A stretch of 64,000 nucleotides of DNA, from positions 1-64,000 of the forward strand of contig NZ_AFRW01000012.1 in the NCBI RefSeq assembly GCF_000220985.1. Reading direction: 5' to 3'. This stretch comes from Nesterenkonia sp. F (GTDB lineage: Bacteria; Actinomycetota; Actinomycetes; Actinomycetales; Micrococcaceae). Made by a program: the position numbers and the translations under genes. Under the pieces are notes generated by a model that ran no database searches, was not told where the DNA came from, and worked only from the letters and a program-made list of their open reading frames with translations. This document shows positions 48,888 through 56,801 of the stretch, one piece after another (position 1 is the stretch's first letter; each line of letters starts with the position of its first letter).

Positions 48888-49541
48888 GTGCGACTGATCG
48901 GCGCCGGAACCCGGGAGGGTTTCGACTACACCGTGCGCAGGACGTTCTGGACGGTGCCGAACATCGTCACCGTCCTGCGGTTCCTGCTCGTGCCGGTCTT
49001 CATCCAGCTGGCCCTGACCGAGGAGCTGGTGGCGGCCTTCGTGGTGCTGGTCGTCCTCGGCGGCACCGACTGGATCGACGGCTGGATCGCCCGGCGCTTC
49101 GACCAGCACTCCACCGTCGGCCGCTGGCTGGATCCGCTGGCCGATCGGCTCTCGGTGGCGATCGTGGCGGTGACCCTGGTCGCCGTCGACATCGCACCGC
49201 TGTGGTTCGTCCTCAGCATCCTCGTCCCCGACGCGGTGCTGGCGATCAATGCGGCGGTGCTCTTCGCCGGCTCCCCGGAGCTTGCGGTGACTGCGCTGGG
49301 CAAGGTGCGCACCGCCGTGCTGATGGTCGGCGCCCCGCTGGTGCTGCTCGCCCGCGCCGAGGTGCTGGCCGGCACGGAGTGGACGCCGATCGCGGAGAGC
49401 GTGCTGGCCGCGGGGTGTCTGATGCACATCCTGGCCGCGGTCGACTATCTTCGACGTGCGCACCGTCAGGCGAGGCGGCTGCGCGCACAGGGGATCGACC
49501 CCCGGGACCGCTCCCGGTGGGTCGCGGGGGAGCAGACATGA
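48888..49541 (+). CDS. CDP-alcohol phosphatidyltransferase (PgsA-like)
   Basis: A 217-residue protein with a complete CDP-OH-P motif in TDWIDGWIARRFDQHSTVGRWLDPLADR (D-x2-DG-x2-AR-x8-G-x3-D-x3-D) and five or six TM helices. Such enzymes transfer a phosphatidyl group from CDP-diacylglycerol to glycerol phosphate, inositol phosphate or another alcohol; N-terminal TFWTVPNIVTVLRFLLVP matches the PgsA/cardiolipin-synthase group. GTG at 48888 has AGGAG nearby. It overlaps the next glycosyltransferase gene by 4 bp. Confidence 0.88.
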   Translation: MRLIGAGTREGFDYTVRRTFWTVPNIVTVLRFLLVPVFIQLALTEELVAAFVVLVVLGGTDWIDGWIARRFDQHSTVGRWLDPLADRLSVAIVAVTLVAVDIAPLWFVLSILVPDAVLAINAAVLFAGSPELAVTALGKVRTAVLMVGAPLVLLARAEVLAGTEWTPIAESVLAAGCLMHILAAVDYLRRAHRQARRLRAQGIDPRDRSRWVAGEQT

Positions 49542-50878
49542 CCACCCCGCGGCATGCCCGCCCGTCGTCGCCCGCCGCCGTCCGTCGTCGCCCAGGAGGA
49601 CAGGACCCGCTGATGCCCAGCACCGAGCCGAGCCCCGAGACCCCCTCCGACCAGTCCGCCGTCGACCCCTCGGCGGTCGACGGCGCCGCCGCGCGTCCGC
49701 TGCGCATCCTCATCGCCGCCGACACCTACCCGCCCGACGTCAACGGCGCGGCGGTGTTCTGCCAGCGGCTGGCCCGGCACATGGCCGCGGCCGGCCATGA
49801 GGTCCACGTCGCGGCCGCCCGCAACACTGCGGGGCCGGGCGTCGTGGAGGAGACCCCGGAGGCGAGCGTCCACCGATTCCGCTCCCACAAGGCCCCGACC
49901 CACGAGTACTACCGGCTGTGCCTGCCCTGGCAGGTCGAGCCGGCGATGGACCGGCTCCTCGCCGAGATCCGGCCCGACGTGGTGCACGTGCAGTGCCATT
50001 ACATGATCGGCAAGGCCGCCCTCGAGGCGGCTGAGCGGCGGCGGATCCGGACCATCGCCACCAACCACTTCATGCCGGAGAACCTGGATCCGTTCCTGCC
50101 GTTCCCGGGGTGGTTCCGCCGGATCGTCGCGGAGAACTCCTGGCGGGACATGTCGCGGCTGATGGGCAAAGCCTCGGTGGTGACCACGCCGACGCCGCTG
50201 GCGGCCGAGACCATGAAGCGTCGGGCCGGGTTCCAGCGGGTGCTGCCGCTCTCCAACGGCATCGACGTCGACCACTACAGCCTGCGGGAGGGCGAGACGG
50301 TCCAGCCGCATCCGCGGCCGACGGTGCTCTTCGTCGGTCGGCTGGCGGTGGAGAAGCACGTCGACGTGCTGATCGACGCCGTCGCGCAGACGGACCCGGC
50401 GCTGGACATCGGCCTGGAGATCGTCGGCGACGGCGAGCAGCGCGACCGCCTGGCCGGGCAGATCGAACGCCTGGGCCTCGGCGACCGGGTGCATCTGCGC
50501 GGCCATGTCGACGACGACGAGCTCCGGCGCGCCTATATCCGTGCCGACGCGTTCTGCCAGCCCGGCACTGCCGAGCTGCAGTCGCTGGTCTCTTTGGAGG
50601 CGATGTCGGCGGCCCGACCGGTGATCCTCGCCGATGCGCTGGCGCTGCCGCATCTGGTCGAGGAAGGCCGCAACGGCCATCTGTTCGTCCCGGGCGACGT
50701 CGCCGACCTGGCTGCGAAGCTCGAGGATCTCTTCCGCCGCAGCCCCGAGGAGCGGGCGGAGATGGGGCGACACAGTCGCACCATGGCCCAGCGGCACTCC
50801 CAGGCGAAGACCATGGCGGCATTCGAACAGCTCTACCGCGGCGCAGACTGGGCCGAGCCCAACCGCCTCGGCTGCTGA
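49538..50878 (+). CDS. GT4-type glycosyltransferase
   Basis: A 446-residue glycosyltransferase family 4 (GT-B) protein: PPDVNGAAVFCQRLARHMAAAGHEVHV, VHVQCHYMIGKAAL, PLSNGIDVDHYSLRE, FVGRLAVEKHVDVLIDAV and the E-x7-E region AELQSLVSLEAMSAARPVI. Sequence resembles mannosyltransferases acting on phosphatidylinositol or diacylglycerol, which suits the phosphatidyltransferase gene upstream with ATGA overlap. The ATG at 49538 has GGGGAG 5 nt upstream; an ATG at 49613 would drop 25 residues. Acceptor unknown. Confidence 0.88.
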   Translation: MTTPRHARPSSPAAVRRRPGGQDPLMPSTEPSPETPSDQSAVDPSAVDGAAARPLRILIAADTYPPDVNGAAVFCQRLARHMAAAGHEVHVAAARNTAGPGVVEETPEASVHRFRSHKAPTHEYYRLCLPWQVEPAMDRLLAEIRPDVVHVQCHYMIGKAALEAAERRRIRTIATNHFMPENLDPFLPFPGWFRRIVAENSWRDMSRLMGKASVVTTPTPLAAETMKRRAGFQRVLPLSNGIDVDHYSLREGETVQPHPRPTVLFVGRLAVEKHVDVLIDAVAQTDPALDIGLEIVGDGEQRDRLAGQIERLGLGDRVHLRGHVDDDELRRAYIRADAFCQPGTAELQSLVSLEAMSAARPVILADALALPHLVEEGRNGHLFVPGDVADLAAKLEDLFRRSPEERAEMGRHSRTMAQRHSQAKTMAAFEQLYRGADWAEPNRLGC

Positions 50879-50970: not shown

Positions 50971-51044
50971 GGGGCGTTAGCTCAGCAGGTCAGAGCAGAG
51001 GACTCATAATCCTTTGGTCGCGGGTTCAAGTCCCGCACGCCCCA
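50971..51044 (+). tRNA. tRNA with CAT anticodon (tRNA-Ile2 more likely than elongator Met)
   Basis: A cloverleaf with acceptor GGGGCGT/ACGCCCC, D arm, anticodon loop CTCATAA with CAT at 51005-51007, variable loop TGGTC, T arm CGGGT/CCCG type and A73 followed by genomic CC. The GACTCATAATCC plus TTTGGTCGC pattern resembles the lysidine-modified tRNA-Ile2 of E. coli. Elongator tRNA-Met cannot be ruled out. It overlaps the 3' end of the methyltransferase gene on the minus strand by about 19 bp. Confidence 0.85.
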
Positions 51045-51985
51045 CCGACTTCCGCCGCGTCGCGGGCTCGCCCCCGGCGGGCGCCGTCCGCCGGATCCCG
51101 CACCAGGACGTCGACGTGGTCGATCCGCAGCCGCAGGGCGCCGGAGCGGATCTGCGCCAGGCGGGCCTCGCCCCAGCGCCGCGCCCGGTCGGGATCGGAC
51201 GCGGTCTCGTCCCTCGCGCCGGGTGCTGCGGAGGACTCTCCGGCCAGCTGCTCGGCGGCGGCCCTGGCGCGGTCCGGAACGAGCTGTTCCAGCAGCGCGG
51301 CGTCGTCGCCGACGGCTGCGTCGAGGATCCAAGGCGTCCCCAGGCGGTCGACGAGGAGCCCACGAGCCTGTGCGGCCTGCTCCAGCGTCGCGGCGGCCTG
51401 CGGTCCGCAGCGGCCCCCGCGGCGCTGATGCCGGTCGAAGGCTCCGGAGACCAGATGATCGTCGGGATGCGGCGGGTCGGCGGTCATCGCTCCGGTGACC
51501 GTCAGCGCGAGCAGCATCGGCGTCCGGTGACGCGCGGTTCCGGCGACCAGCCGGTCGATCTGCGCGGCGGTGAGCAGATCCAGCAGGGCCGAGGCGATGA
51601 CCAGCGTCGGGGTCTGCGCGGCCGTGAGGATCGCGTCGAGACCCGCGACGTCGTCGCAGCGGGTGCTGATCGGACCGGTCGCGCCGCGCGCACGGAGTCG
51701 GCGCGCCGTGGCGGCGAGCAGCTCGGGGTCGTGGTCCAGCAGCACCCACTCCTCGTCGCCGGCCAGCTGATCCTGCAGCCAGCGTCCGCCGGAGCCGGTG
51801 CCGCAGCCGACGTCGACGATGCGGCCGGGACGTCGAGCGGACAGCAGATCGGCGACGGGGCCGCGCGTGGACTCGCGGGCCGCGGCATCGGCGGCCTCGC
51901 GCAGCGTGAGCCAGTCGGCGCTGATGCGCTCGGCGGGCGCGTCGGCATCGGGATCCGTCACGGGCCCGGAATGCGGGTCGATCAT
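51026..51985 (-). CDS. SAM-dependent class I methyltransferase
   Basis: A 319-residue Rossmann methyltransferase. Motif I VDVGCGTGSGGRWL binds SAM, DHDPEL holds the Asp of the second strand, and the DVAGLD and LVIASALLDLL segments follow. The start is uncertain: ATG at 51985 overlaps the glycosyltransferase stop (ATGA), while an ATG at 52036 is 6 nt from TAGGCT (52043-52048) and would add 17 residues with an internal promoter. The 3' end runs into the tRNA on the other strand. Last gene of the minus-strand arm of the pterin-like cluster. Confidence 0.85.
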   Translation of the reverse strand: MIDPHSGPVTDPDADAPAERISADWLTLREAADAAARESTRGPVADLLSARRPGRIVDVGCGTGSGGRWLQDQLAGDEEWVLLDHDPELLAATARRLRARGATGPISTRCDDVAGLDAILTAAQTPTLVIASALLDLLTAAQIDRLVAGTARHRTPMLLALTVTGAMTADPPHPDDHLVSGAFDRHQRRGGRCGPQAAATLEQAAQARGLLVDRLGTPWILDAAVGDDAALLEQLVPDRARAAAEQLAGESSAAPGARDETASDPDRARRWGEARLAQIRSGALRLRIDHVDVLVRDPADGARRGRARDAAEVGGACGT

Positions 51986-53166
51986 CGTGCCACGCTCCGG
52001 ATCAGGGTCTGCCAGTCTGCTGCGGTCCGTGTCCATGGCTGAAGCCTATCCGCCCGCCTCCGGGCGGTCTCGGCCCATCGGCGGCGCAGCGTCGGATCGT
52101 CGAGCCAGGCGCGCAGCTGCGCTGTCCATTGCCGGGGGTCCCGGGGATCGCAGGCGGCTCCGGCGTCGCCCAGGGCCTCCTCCGCGCCGGTGCCGGCCGA
52201 GACGACGCCGGCGACGCCGTGGGCGCAGGCTTCGGTGACCACCATCCCGAACGTCTCGGTCCAGGAGGGGAGCAGCAGCAGGTCCGTGTGCTCCCAGAGC
52301 CCGGGCATCGCCTCGGGAGGCAGCGCCCCGCGGTGGTCGACGCGTCCGGGCAGGCGTCGACGCAGCTCAGCCAGCACGAAGGCTCCTGCGGCAGTCTCGG
52401 CTCCGGGGCCGGCGAGCTGGAGGACCCATTCGCGGTCGAGCAGGGGTTCCAGGGCCTCGCCGAGGAGCCGATGATTCTTCCGCGGGGTGAAGGAGGCGGC
52501 CATCGTCAGTCGCGGAGGCCGGGACGCAGACCGCCGGCGAGCGGAGGCCTCGGCGCCGGAGGCTGCGCCCGACGTCGATCGTGTCGCGCCGGGGGAGATG
52601 ACCTCGACGGCGCGGCGTCCGTGCCGCCGACGGATCTCCTCGGCGGCCCACCGGCTCGTGGCCACCACGCGACGAGCCTGCCGCACCGCCCGCCCCTCGG
52701 CGGCGTCCAGCCCGGCGGACTCCGGACCGGCTTCGACGGCCAGCGGCAGGTGCACCAGCAGGACGTCCGCGTCGGGATCGGCACTGTTGTCGGCACTGTC
52801 GTCGGAACTGTCGGCAGCACCATCGGCGGCACCGTCGGCGGAGAACAGCTCGGGCAGTCCGCCGCCGATGAGCCCGTCGACGACCACCGGCTGACGCCCG
52901 ACCTGGTCATGGACCGCGGAGAGCTGTGCGTGCAGCTCCCGCCGTGCCGACTCGTCGGGGCACGGCCAGGCGCCGGAGACCTCGACGCGATGGACGTCGA
53001 GGCCGTGATGCGCCAGGGCGGCGATCACCTGCTCGTTGTACACCGCGCCGCCGCTGGGTGCCGGCAGCCGCGGCTGCACCCAGATCACCCCGCCGGGCGA
53101 AGGCCGGCTCGGGTCGTCGTGCCGGTCGGAGCCGACGTCCTCGGGCGAGCAGCGTGCAGTGCTCAC
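51982..53166 (-). CDS. GT4-type glycosyltransferase of the pterin-like cluster
   Basis: A 394-residue GT-B glycosyltransferase: N-terminal VQPRLPAPSGGAVYNEQVIAAL, ending with LLLPSWTETFGMVVTEACAHGVAGVVSAGTGAEEA (E-x7-E donor site). There is a low-complexity Asp/Ser insertion at about 115-135. It starts with GTG at 53166, overlapping the PTPS-like stop by 4 bp (GTGA), and overlaps the methyltransferase start at its 3' end. It probably glycosylates the product of the PTPS-like step. Confidence 0.87.
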   Translation of the reverse strand: MSTARCSPEDVGSDRHDDPSRPSPGGVIWVQPRLPAPSGGAVYNEQVIAALAHHGLDVHRVEVSGAWPCPDESARRELHAQLSAVHDQVGRQPVVVDGLIGGGLPELFSADGAADGAADSSDDSADNSADPDADVLLVHLPLAVEAGPESAGLDAAEGRAVRQARRVVATSRWAAEEIRRRHGRRAVEVISPGATRSTSGAASGAEASARRRSASRPPRLTMAASFTPRKNHRLLGEALEPLLDREWVLQLAGPGAETAAGAFVLAELRRRLPGRVDHRGALPPEAMPGLWEHTDLLLLPSWTETFGMVVTEACAHGVAGVVSAGTGAEEALGDAGAACDPRDPRQWTAQLRAWLDDPTLRRRWAETARRRADRLQPWTRTAADWQTLIRSVAR

Positions 53167-53561
53167 AGCTCGACCCGTACTGCGGCACGGGCCTGCGGAT
53201 TCTCCTCGGCGGCGACCTCGAGGGCGAGCAGCCCGTGGTCGCTCGGCAGCGCCTCGGCCAGCTTCTCGGCGATATGGACGATGATCCGCTCGGTCGTGCT
53301 GGCCGTGCCGGTGAAGGCCGGGTGCTCGTCGAGGTTGCGGTGCCGCAGCGGATCCAGCACGACTGAGAGCAGATCCGAAGCGGCCCCGATGTCCATGACG
53401 ACTCCGTGGGGATCGAGCTGAGTGCGTTCGAAGGTCGCGTGGACATGCAGAGTGGCGCCGTGCAGCCGCTGCGCGGGACCGAAGAACGGGTCGTCGAGAC
53501 TGTGCGCGATCATGATGTGATCATCGACGGTCAGGCGGTGGTGGGCGATGCGTCGAGGCAT
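53163..53561 (-). CDS. 6-pyruvoyl-tetrahydropterin synthase (PTPS/QueD)-like protein
   Basis: A 132-residue tunnelling-fold protein. The hallmarks of PTPS/QueD are recognisable but changed: DDHIMIAHSL (first Zn His20), FFGPAQRLHGATLHV where the usual HGH is HGA (Ala36) and the catalytic Cys before it is absent, LDEH, STTERI (substrate Glu91) and a final E-x-x-x-A-V-R-V. Length and topology are normal. The start ATG 53561 has GGAGG upstream. It overlaps the glycosyltransferase by 4 bp. Chemistry must differ from QueD or pterin synthase; the substrate is presumably a GTP-derived pyrimidine or pterin. Confidence 0.85.
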   Translation of the reverse strand: MPRRIAHHRLTVDDHIMIAHSLDDPFFGPAQRLHGATLHVHATFERTQLDPHGVVMDIGAASDLLSVVLDPLRHRNLDEHPAFTGTASTTERIIVHIAEKLAEALPSDHGLLALEVAAEENPQARAAVRVEL

Positions 53562-53632
53562 CCGGACCTCCTTCGGGTCGAGCGGGACGGGGCCGTCCAC
53601 GGGTCGTGCTCGTGTCACGTGGTCGGACGTCG

Positions 53633-54733
53633 TCACCTCATGTGGTCGATGACATGGCAGAGGGTCGAGGCCCAGGCGGGATCTCCGGCGCCCAGCGCGT
53701 CCATCACGGTCGGCAGCTCCTCCAGCGGCGAGCGGCCGGTCAGCAGCGCGTCGCAGCGGGCGTCGAGCATCCCCAGCGCCAGGCTCAGCCGCTGCCGCCG
53801 GCTGCGTCGCGCCCGACGCGGTGGAGCGACCTCGCCGACCTGGGAGGCGAGGAGCCGCAGACGACGGGCGTGGAAGTCTGCTCCCAGCGGCACGACCGGC
53901 GCTGTGCGGCCGAACCATGACTGCTCCACGACGACGGCGTCGTCGCCGGCCAGCCGCAGCGCCGCGGCCAGCCCGTCCTCCGTCGCCGAGGCATGGAAGA
54001 CCACGTCGACGTCGCCGACCGCCTCCTCGGGAGTCGTCGCCTCCAGCCCGAGCCGACGGGCCAGGCCCCGGCGGTCCCCGTCGACGTCGATCACCTGCAG
54101 CCGCTCGGGCCCCAGGGAGGAGGCCAGCAGAGCCGTGGTGAGGCCGACGAGACCGGCGCCGACGATGCAGAGGCGGTCGCCGAGCGTCGCCGGCGCCTCC
54201 CAGATCGCGTTGAGTGCCGGCTCGGCGATGCCGGCCAGCAGCGCCCGGTCGGCGGGGCAGTCCTCCGGCAGCGGGTGGCAGTCGGCGGCGGGCACCACGA
54301 GGTGGTCGCGGTGTCCTCCGAGGCAGAAGACCGTCCGGCCGATCAGCTGCTCGGCCTCGGGGCCCACCCCTGCTCGGACCACGCCGACGGCCAGATAGCC
54401 GTGGCTCACCGGATGGGGCAGATCGCCGAGCTGCAGCGGCGCACGCATCCGGGACGCCATCGTCTCGGGCACCTCTCCGCGGTGGATCAGCGTCTCGGTG
54501 CCGCGGGAGACGCCGCTGAGCAGCGTCTCGACGAGCACTTCGCCGGGACCCGGCTCGGGCACCGGTGCTCGGCGGATCTCGCCGCGTCCCGGGGCGACGG
54601 TCCAGTACTGGCGGCTGAGCGGGGTGCGGGAGGAGGGCATGTCGGAGGGCGCGTCGGGATCTGCGTCGGAGGCCTGCCCCGAGGCGGACCGGGAGGCCGT
54701 GGGGCGGCCGGAGCGGAACGTGCCGAGGTCCAT
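53633..54733 (-). CDS. Medium-chain dehydrogenase/reductase (MDR) family oxidoreductase
   Basis: A 366-residue MDR protein. N-terminal catalytic domain PEPGPGEVLVETLLSGVSRGTE, then a Rossmann domain LCIVGAGLVGLTTALLASSLG with DVDGDRR (NAD(H)-preferring Asp). The classical Zn ligands (GHE motif, structural Cys cluster) are missing; SRGTE and EPALNAI resemble the BchC/sorbitol-like subfamily. The ATG at 54733 is 6 nt from CAGGAT (54740-54745), and is the first gene of the minus-strand arm. Upstream low-complexity residues belong to an in-frame extension and are excluded. The real product end is 72 bp before the PTPS-like start. Confidence 0.82.
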   Translation of the reverse strand: MDLGTFRSGRPTASRSASGQASDADPDAPSDMPSSRTPLSRQYWTVAPGRGEIRRAPVPEPGPGEVLVETLLSGVSRGTETLIHRGEVPETMASRMRAPLQLGDLPHPVSHGYLAVGVVRAGVGPEAEQLIGRTVFCLGGHRDHLVVPAADCHPLPEDCPADRALLAGIAEPALNAIWEAPATLGDRLCIVGAGLVGLTTALLASSLGPERLQVIDVDGDRRGLARRLGLEATTPEEAVGDVDVVFHASATEDGLAAALRLAGDDAVVVEQSWFGRTAPVVPLGADFHARRLRLLASQVGEVAPPRRARRSRRQRLSLALGMLDARCDALLTGRSPLEELPTVMDALGAGDPAWASTLCHVIDHMR

Positions 54734-54806
54734 AGCCGTATCCTGCCATGTCTTCCCCGCCGGGAGGGGCTGTGACCGGCGTCGACGGGGCTCTAGGATC
54801 GCCGCC
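54734..54806. promoter_or_regulatory. Divergent leaderless promoters of the pterin-like cluster
   Basis: In a 73-bp gap, CAGGAT (54740-54745, minus strand) lies 6 nt from the dehydrogenase ATG and TAGGAT (54794-54799, plus strand) 7 nt from the phosphatidyltransferase ATG. The two arms therefore start from closely spaced promoters and may share one regulator. Confidence 0.55.
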
Positions 54807-55649
54807 ATGGAGCCGACAGTCGGGAGAGCACGCGGCCTGGCGCCGGTGCTGGGGGCCGCTGCGGTGCTGCTCGGCGGGATGACGCTGTCGGGCGATCCGC
54901 TGGCCGCGATCTTCGACCAGGGGCCGACGTCCCCGGGAGGCGTCTCCGGCGGCGAGGGAGATGGCTTCCCCCGGACGGCGGTGCTCGGCGGGCTGCTCGT
55001 CTTCGGGCTGTGTCAGCGGCACGCGCTCGTCGGCGCCGCCCCCTTCCGTGCGGCTGATGCGGTGACATTGCTGCGCACCACGCTGCTGGGACTGTTCGTC
55101 GCCGTGCTGATCCGACGGCTCCTCGCCGAGACGGCTCCGTCCGAGCACCTGGTGCTCTCCTGGTCGGCGGTGGCGCTCGCCGTCGTGATCCTGCTGCTGG
55201 ACGGGGCCGACGGTGCCGTGGCCCGGGCCTGCGGCGGGGGCACGACGGCCGGACGTCACTACGACGACATCGCCGACGCCGTCGTGCTGCTCGTGCTCGC
55301 CGCGGCCGCGGGCGGACTGCTGGAGTGGTGGGCGGTGCTGGCCGGGGCGGCCAAGCCGCTGTTCGCCCTCGGCGGGCGGTTCCGCAGTCGATGGCGCGGT
55401 GCACTGCGTCCCAGCGGCCTGCGGCGGGCGCTGGGCACGGCGCCGGGGGCGCTGCTGCTGGCGGCGATCGCGCCCCTGCCGTGGGAGGACTGGACGCGCT
55501 GGTTCTGCGGAACCGACGCCTCTCCGTCGACGGACCCGGCGGACGGGCGTCTGGTCGCCGCGGGGCTGGCGGTGCTGCTCGTCGCGGTCTCCTTCGGCCG
55601 GGACATCGCTGATCTGGAGCGGAGGGCCGTCGGACCGGGGCGCGGCTGA
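54807..55649 (+). CDS. CDP-alcohol phosphatidyltransferase of the pterin-like cluster
   Basis: A 280-residue multi-pass protein. The CDP-OH-P motif LDGADGAVARACGGGTTAGRHYDDIAD (D-x2-DG-x2-AR-x8-G-x3-D-x3-D) lies at about residues 132-160. TM helices precede and follow. It differs from the PgsA-like protein at 48888, with longer N-terminal helices and a C-terminal soluble loop, so the alcohol acceptor is probably different. It could attach a lipid or an alcohol phosphate to the cluster product. The TAGGAT box sets the start. 60 bp upstream of a glycosyltransferase gene. Confidence 0.85.
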   Translation: MEPTVGRARGLAPVLGAAAVLLGGMTLSGDPLAAIFDQGPTSPGGVSGGEGDGFPRTAVLGGLLVFGLCQRHALVGAAPFRAADAVTLLRTTLLGLFVAVLIRRLLAETAPSEHLVLSWSAVALAVVILLLDGADGAVARACGGGTTAGRHYDDIADAVVLLVLAAAAGGLLEWWAVLAGAAKPLFALGGRFRSRWRGALRPSGLRRALGTAPGALLLAAIAPLPWEDWTRWFCGTDASPSTDPADGRLVAAGLAVLLVAVSFGRDIADLERRAVGPGRG

Positions 55650-55709
55650 CCACACACCGGTCCACACGGCGCTCCACGCTGTTGCGCAGGCAGTTGGCAC
55701 AATGGCGGT

Positions 55710-56801
55710 GTGCTGCGACTCTTCTTCGACGCCCGCTACACCCGCCCCCGGGTCCACGACGGGATCTCCCGCTTCTCGGCCGGCCTCATCGAGGCCGCCG
55801 CCGAGCATGCCGAGGTCACCCTGCTCATCAGCGACGAGGAACAGCTGAACCTGCTGCCGAAGGGGCTGCCCCGGCTGAGGATCTCCTCGCCGACCTCGCC
55901 CCGCGAGCCCTGGGTGGCCCGGCAGATCAATCCCCACCGGCCCGACGTCGTCTTCTCGCCGATGCAGACCATGGGTGGATTCGGGCGGAACTACCCGCTG
56001 ATCCTCACGCTGCACGACCTCATCTACTACGAGCACCGGACCCCGCCGCGGGATCTGCCGGCCCCGGTGCGGCTGGGCTGGCGGCTCTACCACCTCAGCT
56101 ATCTTCCGCAGCGATTCGTGCTGAACCGGGCCGACGCCGTGGCCACCGTCTCGGAGACCACGCGCGGACTGATGCGCGACCATCGGCTCGCGCGCCGGCC
56201 CATCGAGCTGATCCCGAATGCCCCGCAGCCTGTGCCCGAGCCCCGCGATCCCGAGCAGGCTCCGAGCCGCGACCTGGTCTACATGGGGTCCTTCATGGCG
56301 TACAAGAACGTCGAGACGCTGGTGCGTGCCCTCGAGGAGCTGCCCGACCACCGGCTGCACCTGTGCAGTCCGATCGCCGCGTCCCGCAGGGAGGCGCTCG
56401 TCGCCCTGGCGGCCCGTCCCGAGCAGCTGGTCTTCCATGACGGCATCGACGAGGCCGACTACCGCGATCTGCTGCGCACCGCCGAGGCCCTGGTCACCCT
56501 CTCCCGGGCCGAGGGGTACGGCCTGCCGGTGGTCGAGGCGATGGCCCACGGCACCCCGACGGTGGTCTCCGATCTGCCGATCTTCGCCGAGATCGCCGGC
56601 GAGGCCGTCGCCGACCGGGGTGCCCAGATCGTCGACCCCGACCGTCCGGAGGAGCTGGCCTCGGCCGTCCGCACGCTGGAGGACCCGCGGGTCTTCGCCG
56701 AAGCCTCCCGCGCCGCCCGACGACGCAGCGCCGACTTCAGCTGGGAGGACTCGGCCCGTCGACTGGTCGAGCTGGGGGAGCGGCTGGCCGCCCGCAGCTG
56801 A
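55710..56801 (+). CDS. GT4-type glycosyltransferase (second of the cluster)
   Basis: A 363-residue GT-B protein: HDGISRFSAGLIEAA, LTLHDLIYYEHR, VSETTRGLMRDH, YMGSFMAYKNVETLVRAL and EGYGLPVVEAMAHGTPTVVSD. It starts with GTG at 55710, 6 nt after CACAAT (55698-55703). It ends at 56801, where the open frame of the M23-like gene runs in from the other strand. It forms the plus-strand arm with the phosphatidyltransferase gene. Confidence 0.87.
   Translation: MLRLFFDARYTRPRVHDGISRFSAGLIEAAAEHAEVTLLISDEEQLNLLPKGLPRLRISSPTSPREPWVARQINPHRPDVVFSPMQTMGGFGRNYPLILTLHDLIYYEHRTPPRDLPAPVRLGWRLYHLSYLPQRFVLNRADAVATVSETTRGLMRDHRLARRPIELIPNAPQPVPEPRDPEQAPSRDLVYMGSFMAYKNVETLVRALEELPDHRLHLCSPIAASRREALVALAARPEQLVFHDGIDEADYRDLLRTAEALVTLSRAEGYGLPVVEAMAHGTPTVVSDLPIFAEIAGEAVADRGAQIVDPDRPEELASAVRTLEDPRVFAEASRAARRRSADFSWEDSARRLVELGERLAARS

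Follow-up and report, generated by a model that had tools for sequence, protein, structure and literature searches.

Among T-fold proteins, PTPS and QueD serve biopterin and queuosine synthesis, and a further subfamily of COG0720, PTPS-IV, is marked by the signature FGPAQ (PMC5445326). One PTPS-IV structure is known, SCO6650 of Streptomyces coelicolor (3d7j), as is one linked cyclohydrolase, SCO6655, a GTP cyclohydrolase II (GCHII) according to PMC2853524; a cyclohydrolase has also been noted in the PTPS-IV neighbourhood, where PMC5445326 names FolE2. Here, a PTPS-IV locus of Nesterenkonia sp. F was analysed in a stretch of 64,000 nucleotides (the window; contig C127 of the 2.8-Mb genome), in which the PTPS-IV gene lies among genes for an MDR oxidoreductase, two glycosyltransferases, a methyltransferase and a CDP-alcohol phosphotransferase. 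The product of the cluster is probably a GTP-derived molecule that carries sugar and is associated with the membrane; with moderate confidence we regard the cluster as encoding the middle and later steps of a widespread pathway that leads from the GCHII diaminopyrimidine DARoPP to the membrane.

An earlier note on this DNA had put the cluster forward as a candidate undescribed pathway. This holds for the pathway and its product, on which no paper was found in the open PubMed Central (PMC) literature (most subscription papers and preprints lie outside that scope), but not for the central protein, since PTPS-IV had already been named, with the 3d7j structure and a neighbouring cyclohydrolase on record (PMC5445326 and PMC5041015). 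New, as far as the open PMC literature shows, are the exact co-occurrence with the MDR gene, the gene set common to several phyla, the division of the front end into two modules and the evidence against F420.

Gene set and co-occurrence

Three samples were used: a class survey of 344 genomes (at least 90% completeness requested), a genus survey of 30 genomes including the window genome, and a neighbourhood set of 97 loci consisting of 16 hand-picked relatives, the 80 best-matching out of at least 583 further relatives, and the window. A PTPS gene was called in all but two of the 97 loci, which leaves 95; L073 and L093 were left out of the 95, L073 was kept among the 42 loci with GCHII, and L048 and L050 are one record, counted twice. 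Linkage in the 95 loci means that a gene family lies within 10 kb of PTPS-IV. Other family 4 glycosyltransferases (GT4) were left out of the count for the first glycosyltransferase (GTa), a PgsA-like cluster was left out of the count for the CDP-alcohol phosphotransferase (CDP-OH) family, and creatininase was counted by DNA search (a simple gene finder overlooked it in L108, L112, L114 and L120).

The PTPS profile matched 54 of the 344 class genomes at E ≤ 0.001, 50 strongly (E < 1e-40) and four weakly, and the MDR profile matched 76 at E ≤ 1e-20, 50 strongly (E < 1e-130). Both strong sets consisted of the same 50 genomes. One genome has two pairs, and in 48 of the 51 pairs the distance between the two genes was under 300 bp (0.5, 1.4 and 6.7 kb in the others). 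Given these counts, the gene arrangement is far beyond chance, and the proposal that the genes form a conserved unit is borne out by the shared set of 50. The pathway is present in about one-seventh of the sampled class genomes and in at least five phyla, and the structure of one of its proteins has been solved since 2008. In one genome of the survey (G099, C170:1062-2412) a PTPS match that is weak (1e-7) adjoins an MDR match of intermediate strength (2.5e-61), possibly a divergent second version of the pair.

The genes of the window locus and the gap between its two arms are as follows:

51026..51985, minus strand: methyltransferase (MT), S-adenosylmethionine-dependent, class I; PF13649 (Methyltransf_25) 37.3 bits; motif VDVGCGTG
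51982..53166, minus strand: GT4 glycosyltransferase GTa; PF00534 (Glycos_transf_1) 73.2 bits; GTG start
53163..53561, minus strand: PTPS-IV, a T-fold protein; PF01242 80.5 bits, cut-off 22.4; ATG after AAGGAGG
53633..54733, minus strand: BchC-like MDR oxidoreductase; nucleotide-binding motif GAGLVG
54734..54806, no strand: divergent intergenic region, 73 bp
54807..55649, plus strand: CDP-alcohol phosphotransferase; PF01066 (CDP-OH_P_transf) 50.4 bits; catalytic motif intact
55710..56801, plus strand: second GT4 glycosyltransferase (GTb); PF00534 65.9 bits; genus-limited neighbour of uncertain membership

All six genes described earlier, four on the minus and two on the plus strand and arranged head to head, were recovered at their positions, as were the overlaps GTGA (PTPS stop and GTa start) and ATGA (GTa stop and MT start). 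MDR and PTPS are spaced by 71 bp without overlap if PTPS starts at the ATG behind AAGGAGG, a strong ribosome site of its own.

The PTPS-like protein, the sole PTPS of the window genome, carries FGPAQ, whose F, G, P and A are found in 95/95 relatives and whose Q in 92/95. SCO6650, which has the signature and the fold in common with it, is its closest solved structure (E 3e-26); the predicted model (pLDDT 95.1) matched 3d7j with Z 20.4 and a root-mean-square deviation of 1.3 over 128 residues at 46% identity, followed by PTPS and QueD entries with Z 14 to 16. In an alignment to mammalian PTPS, the zinc ligands His20 and His34 were kept in 95/95 relatives and the third His was replaced by Ala in 94/95 and Val in 1/95; the catalytic Cys column was Ala in 95/95; the catalytic Asp was kept in 6/95 and the catalytic His in 8/95 (Arg and His, respectively, in the window protein); and the ring-anchor Glu120 was kept in 94/95 (the remaining one reads X) and Glu91 in 95/95. 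On this pattern PTPS-IV should still hold a 2-amino-4-oxopyrimidine ring and, because the catalytic Cys and one zinc His are replaced, should not run the PTPS or QueD reaction in the known manner. The protein of the 3d7j study is reportedly without zinc and catalytic triad and gave no PTPS reaction.

PTPS and QueD have the T-fold and the Glu anchor in common with PTPS-IV, but the HGH zinc triad and the catalytic Cys are missing from the latter, and the recurring PTPS-IV neighbours belong to other families. A queuosine or biopterin enzyme was rejected on the lost catalytic residues (no search of the loci for QueC, QueE, QueF, other Que genes or sepiapterin reductase was made). Dihydroneopterin triphosphate, which the earlier note had named as the substrate of PTPS and QueD, is not supported as the substrate here: the catalytic residues of PTPS and QueD are gone, and the linked cyclohydrolase is of type II and leads to a diaminopyrimidine. 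The PTPS-IV tree (midpoint root) comprised Actinomycetota, Pseudomonadota, Gemmatimonadota, Acidobacteriota and Myxococcota. In it, sequences from Pseudomonadota, Gemmatimonadota and Acidobacteriota grouped together amid actinobacterial ones, which suggests transfer.

The MDR partner was called in 88/95 loci (not in L034, L043, L060, L091, L092, L109 and L126; tblastn shows it in L043 and, in pieces, in L034). It had no Pfam match at E ≤ 0.001, NCBIfam matches of the HpnZ, Tdh and BchC types were far under their cut-offs, and its profile search matches were general MDR enzymes. At the catalytic-zinc region the window protein has SGVSRGTE without the Cys of GxCGTD, and it was therefore not classed as zinc-dependent; zinc MDRs usually carry GICGTD at that position. 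Among 21 aligned MDR sequences the G-T-E of SGVSRGTE was invariant and the preceding R present in at least 90%.

GTa was linked to PTPS-IV in 82/95 loci, within 300 bp in 75/95, and its best solved relatives were Tll1590 (6kih), then D-inositol-3-phosphate glycosyltransferase and PimA/PimB types. Within the genus, PTPS-IV was found in 29 of the 30 genomes, GTa in every one of these 29 and MT in 21; in the remaining genome (G025, 82% complete) none of the three was found. MT adjoins GTa in all 21 genomes that have it, five with the pair beside PTPS and 16 with the pair away from it (one a broken copy, in a genome 62% complete). The genus genomes are kin and not independent, but that the pair stays together after relocation is a sign of joint use. 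The MT family was linked in 58/95 loci. Its profile search gave weak matches (best E 1e-5) and its fold search general small-molecule methyltransferases with Z up to 19.5 (3mgg), followed by EgtD, histamine and CysG types, a result that points to no particular substrate. The CDP-alcohol phosphotransferase motif DGx2ARx8Gx3Dx3D is present (DGAVARACGGGTTAGRHYDDIAD); the CDP-OH family was linked in 55/95 loci, and its profile matches were general. GTb formed a gene cluster of 10 loci, all of this genus, to which tblastn added L048.

Some genomes or loci lack MT, others CDP-OH or the front end, which leaves PTPS-IV, MDR and GTa as the core of the gene set. The CDP-alcohol gene and GTb, which the earlier note had counted as members, were accordingly not retained as core in this lineage, the one not being found in four of seven congener loci and the other being found only within the genus.

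In L047-L050 the gene that follows PTPS, in the place where GTa would be expected, encodes a protein family of about 409 aa that looks secreted by eye; in the genomes of L047, L048 and L049 (G016, G022 and G011) the GTa-MT pair is located elsewhere. GTa has one in-frame TGA in G005 (C4:53598-54647) and in G002 (C1:1718851-1719972), through a broken copy or a sequencing error.

Front end and supply of the intermediate

Near PTPS-IV in the 95 loci, the flippase-like LPG_synthase_TM was found in 50, RibD_C in 44, GCHII in 41, a sulfatase-like protein in 22, FkbM in 12, cytochrome b561 in seven and an inositol-phosphatase-like protein in six; creatininase was found in 13/96 loci, and at least one of GCHII, RibD_C and creatininase in 57/95. 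The GCHII of these 41 loci supports a start from GTP as proposed earlier. It also gives the subfamily a cyclohydrolase neighbour, as in the literature, but not the window locus, since the only GCHII of the window genome is on another contig. The seven loci with cytochrome b561 are proteobacterial or gemmatimonad (L078, L080, L082, L091, L097, L099 and L118) and hint at a membrane redox use.

Streptomyces clusters with cyclohydrolase II and creatininase, which the earlier note had mentioned, were located in L108 and L124 and contain PTPS-IV, a glycosyltransferase and MT. CDP-OH, MDR, PTPS-IV, GT4 and MT follow in the same order as in the window; the Streptomyces loci add a flippase-like protein, a creatininase and a Met-type cyclohydrolase II, whereas the window is without these and has a second GT4. 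Judged by gene order, L108 would correspond gene for gene to SCO6650-SCO6655, the creatininase presumably being SCO6654.

The cyclohydrolase module occurs in two forms. GCHII residue 105 (E. coli RibA numbering) was Tyr in 31 of the 42 loci (41 with called PTPS plus L073); the other 11 had Met, His, Gln or Ile there. With the Tyr type, RibD_C was present in 29 loci and creatininase in one (L078); with the non-Tyr type, creatininase was present in 10 and RibD_C in one (L081), the non-Tyr locus without creatininase being L072, whose contig ends 2.3 kb beyond PTPS. Residue 105 and creatininase were associated (10/1/1/30, Fisher p 8e-8, with sequences and not evolutionary events counted). Nine genes were GCHII-RibD_C fusions. 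In the GCHII tree, E. coli RibA and the RibA of the window genome (the latter's place unsure) fell among the cluster GCHII, which formed no clade apart from E. coli RibA, as expected if the GCHII step was recruited more than once.

SCO6655, with Met at residue 105, is reported (Spoonamore 2006) to stop at the formyl intermediate. In PMC9478397, the creatininase-annotated BrbF removes that formyl group to give DARoPP. Both front-end forms could deliver this diaminopyrimidine of the riboflavin pathway, because deformylation of the BrbF type could follow a cyclohydrolase that stops at the formyl stage; the two interchangeable front ends suggest DARoPP as a concrete first intermediate.

The single GCHII of the window genome is of the Tyr type and belongs to a RibE-RibB-RibA frame on contig C23, adjacent to RibH; creatininase gave no match at E ≤ 0.001. 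On C23 (L032, 3402-1294) a 702-aa frame looks like a fusion of riboflavin synthase, DHBP synthase and GTP cyclohydrolase II and is followed by a lumazine-synthase-like frame; the cyclohydrolase alone was tested with a model, and the other rib names are presumed, by eye. RibD_C has four copies in this genome. The best is the C23 copy close to the riboflavin genes; the remaining three scored weakly (16-29 bits) with the cluster model, none of them clearly of the cluster type, so that a dedicated reductase was not found. A dedicated GCHII elsewhere in the genome was rejected, the sole GCHII being that of the RibE-RibB-RibA frame. DARoPP can come from riboflavin synthesis here because an ordinary RibA is present, and the window genome may need no dedicated cyclohydrolase.

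As regards riboflavin synthesis itself, its front-end enzymes (RibA, the BrbF formamidase and RibD_C) are of the same or similar families as those that start the pathway in relatives, but RibB, RibE and RibH were each found in 0/96 PTPS-IV loci (RibA in 43/96; tblastn, E ≤ 1e-5). A riboflavin operon or paralogue operon was rejected on this result and on the location of the genome's own riboflavin genes on another contig.

Proposed pathway and alternatives

With the gene set, its linkage and co-occurrence, the residue losses and the two front-end forms as observed, we infer DARoPP as the branch point, the order and chemistry of the steps and a membrane product. GTP cyclohydrolase II would open GTP to DARoPP, also the first intermediate of riboflavin synthesis, with a normal GCHII plus a RibD_C-type reductase, or a Tyr-less GCHII plus a presumed formamidase of the creatininase fold, at the start in many relatives, where these genes lie beside the cluster; in Nesterenkonia the housekeeping RibA could supply the intermediate. 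With DARoPP or its ribityl form as the entry compound, PTPS-IV would hold the 2-amino-4-oxopyrimidine ring through the conserved Glu and act without the usual zinc site, and MDR would oxidise or reduce its product. GTa would add a sugar and MT a methyl group, and the CDP-alcohol phosphotransferase would attach the product to the membrane or move it through; elsewhere a flippase-like and sometimes sulfatase-like membrane protein may join in the membrane placement. The gene set fits the methylated, reduced, glycosylated and membrane-linked compound of the earlier note, and the suggested route would branch off riboflavin metabolism and end in a compound that is glycosylated and perhaps bound to lipid.

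Several results weigh against this scheme. The loci are not a random sample, being best matches and partly the author's choice, and 38/95 of them, the window included, have no front-end gene within 10 kb. Eight genus genomes have a divergent GTa beside PTPS and no MT was found in them, so methylation is not universal; nor is the membrane link, the CDP-alcohol gene not being found in the congener loci L035, L036, L047 and L048. The 11 non-Tyr GCHII form one clade (support 97/92), and their pairing with creatininase therefore reflects few evolutionary events. As the modules swap RibD_C for creatininase, they may yield different intermediates. For one cluster creatininase the score was higher with the model of mycofactocin MftE (147 bits, under its cut-off of 172) than with that of archaeal ArfB (30 bits), and one cluster RibD_C, at 129.6 bits, fell short of the cut-off of 186.45 set for the archaeal DARoPP reductase.

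Among the other explanations, we consider it possible, though doubtful, that PTPS-IV is a non-catalytic binding or regulatory sensor of the ring and that MDR, RibD_C, the glycosyltransferase and MT alone do the chemistry. The replacement of the catalytic Cys and one zinc His in 95/95 relatives, with Asp left in 6/95, His in 8/95 and the ring-anchor Glu kept, is in keeping with this; against it, 16 positions are invariant among 30 PTPS-IV sequences across phyla, which seems more than is needed for ring binding alone, and PTPS-IV travels as an enzyme-like operon member. Rather less probable is a split GTP cyclohydrolase I, in which GCHII, with or without the formamidase, would open GTP to the diaminopyrimidine and the T-fold PTPS-IV, lacking the zinc site, would carry out just the latter half of the reaction, rearranging the sugar and closing the ring to a dihydroneopterin phosphate. 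If true, reduction, glycosylation and methylation of the pterin and its attachment to a phospholipid would follow and give a membrane-anchored pterin, which would be a new kind of redox lipid. We think it unlikely, somewhat more so than the split reaction, that the membrane genes serve lipoglycan or glycolipid synthesis and that MDR-PTPS has no part in it and has stayed next to them through operon inertia. In favour of this, inositol-phosphate and phosphatidylinositol glycosyltransferases are among the enzymes that GTa resembles, genes of the CDP-alcohol and flippase-like kinds would be at home in a glycolipid pathway, and the neighbourhood also has a PgsA-like gene with another GT4 (48888-50878); but the proximity of GTa to PTPS-IV (75/95 loci within 300 bp, 82/95 within 10 kb) extends across phyla, GTa is present in 29/29 genus genomes with PTPS-IV, and GTP front-end genes recur in the same clusters.

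A part in F420 biosynthesis, with the cluster modifying or supplying F420 precursors, appears very improbable. PMC5041015 states such a role for PTPS-IV in making the archaeal cofactor, as an unpublished result; a cyclohydrolase of the formyl type, together with formamidase and RibD_C, could serve F420 and riboflavin alike; and at E ≤ 1e-50 CofH was matched in 41/50 PTPS-IV genomes (82%) against 235 of all 344 (68%; 225 over the cut-off). However, nine of the 50 PTPS-IV genomes had no CofH match (G000, G024, G059, G307, G039, G040, G085, G157 and G385), and CofH/FbiC had no match at E ≤ 1e-50 in the window genome, so PTPS-IV has work without F420, and F420 synthesis as known has no place for glycosyltransferase, methyltransferase, CDP-alcohol and flippase-like genes. 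F420 biosynthesis was thus rejected for this lineage, with the window genome and its congener G024 among the nine, and an F420 role of PTPS-IV is argued against in bacteria without CofH; the unpublished role (PMC5041015) does not fit these genomes.

Promoter region and flanking features

The earlier note had also proposed shared divergent promoters. This is plausible for the 73-bp gap between the MDR and CDP-alcohol genes, but a sigma-70 scan returned no promoter-like site. By eye, TAGGAT at 54794-54799 (+), 7 bases 5' of the CDP-alcohol ATG, resembles a leaderless actinobacterial promoter, without a sigma-70 match.

Near the cluster, a CDP-alcohol-type gene and a further GT4 (48888-50878, +) are conserved together in 11 genus loci, the window included, apart from the cluster genes; the former is presumably PgsA-like, as judged by a cluster model. 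A tRNA-Met gene (50971-51046, +) shares 21 bases with the 3' end of the MT frame on the opposite strand (51026-51985, -).

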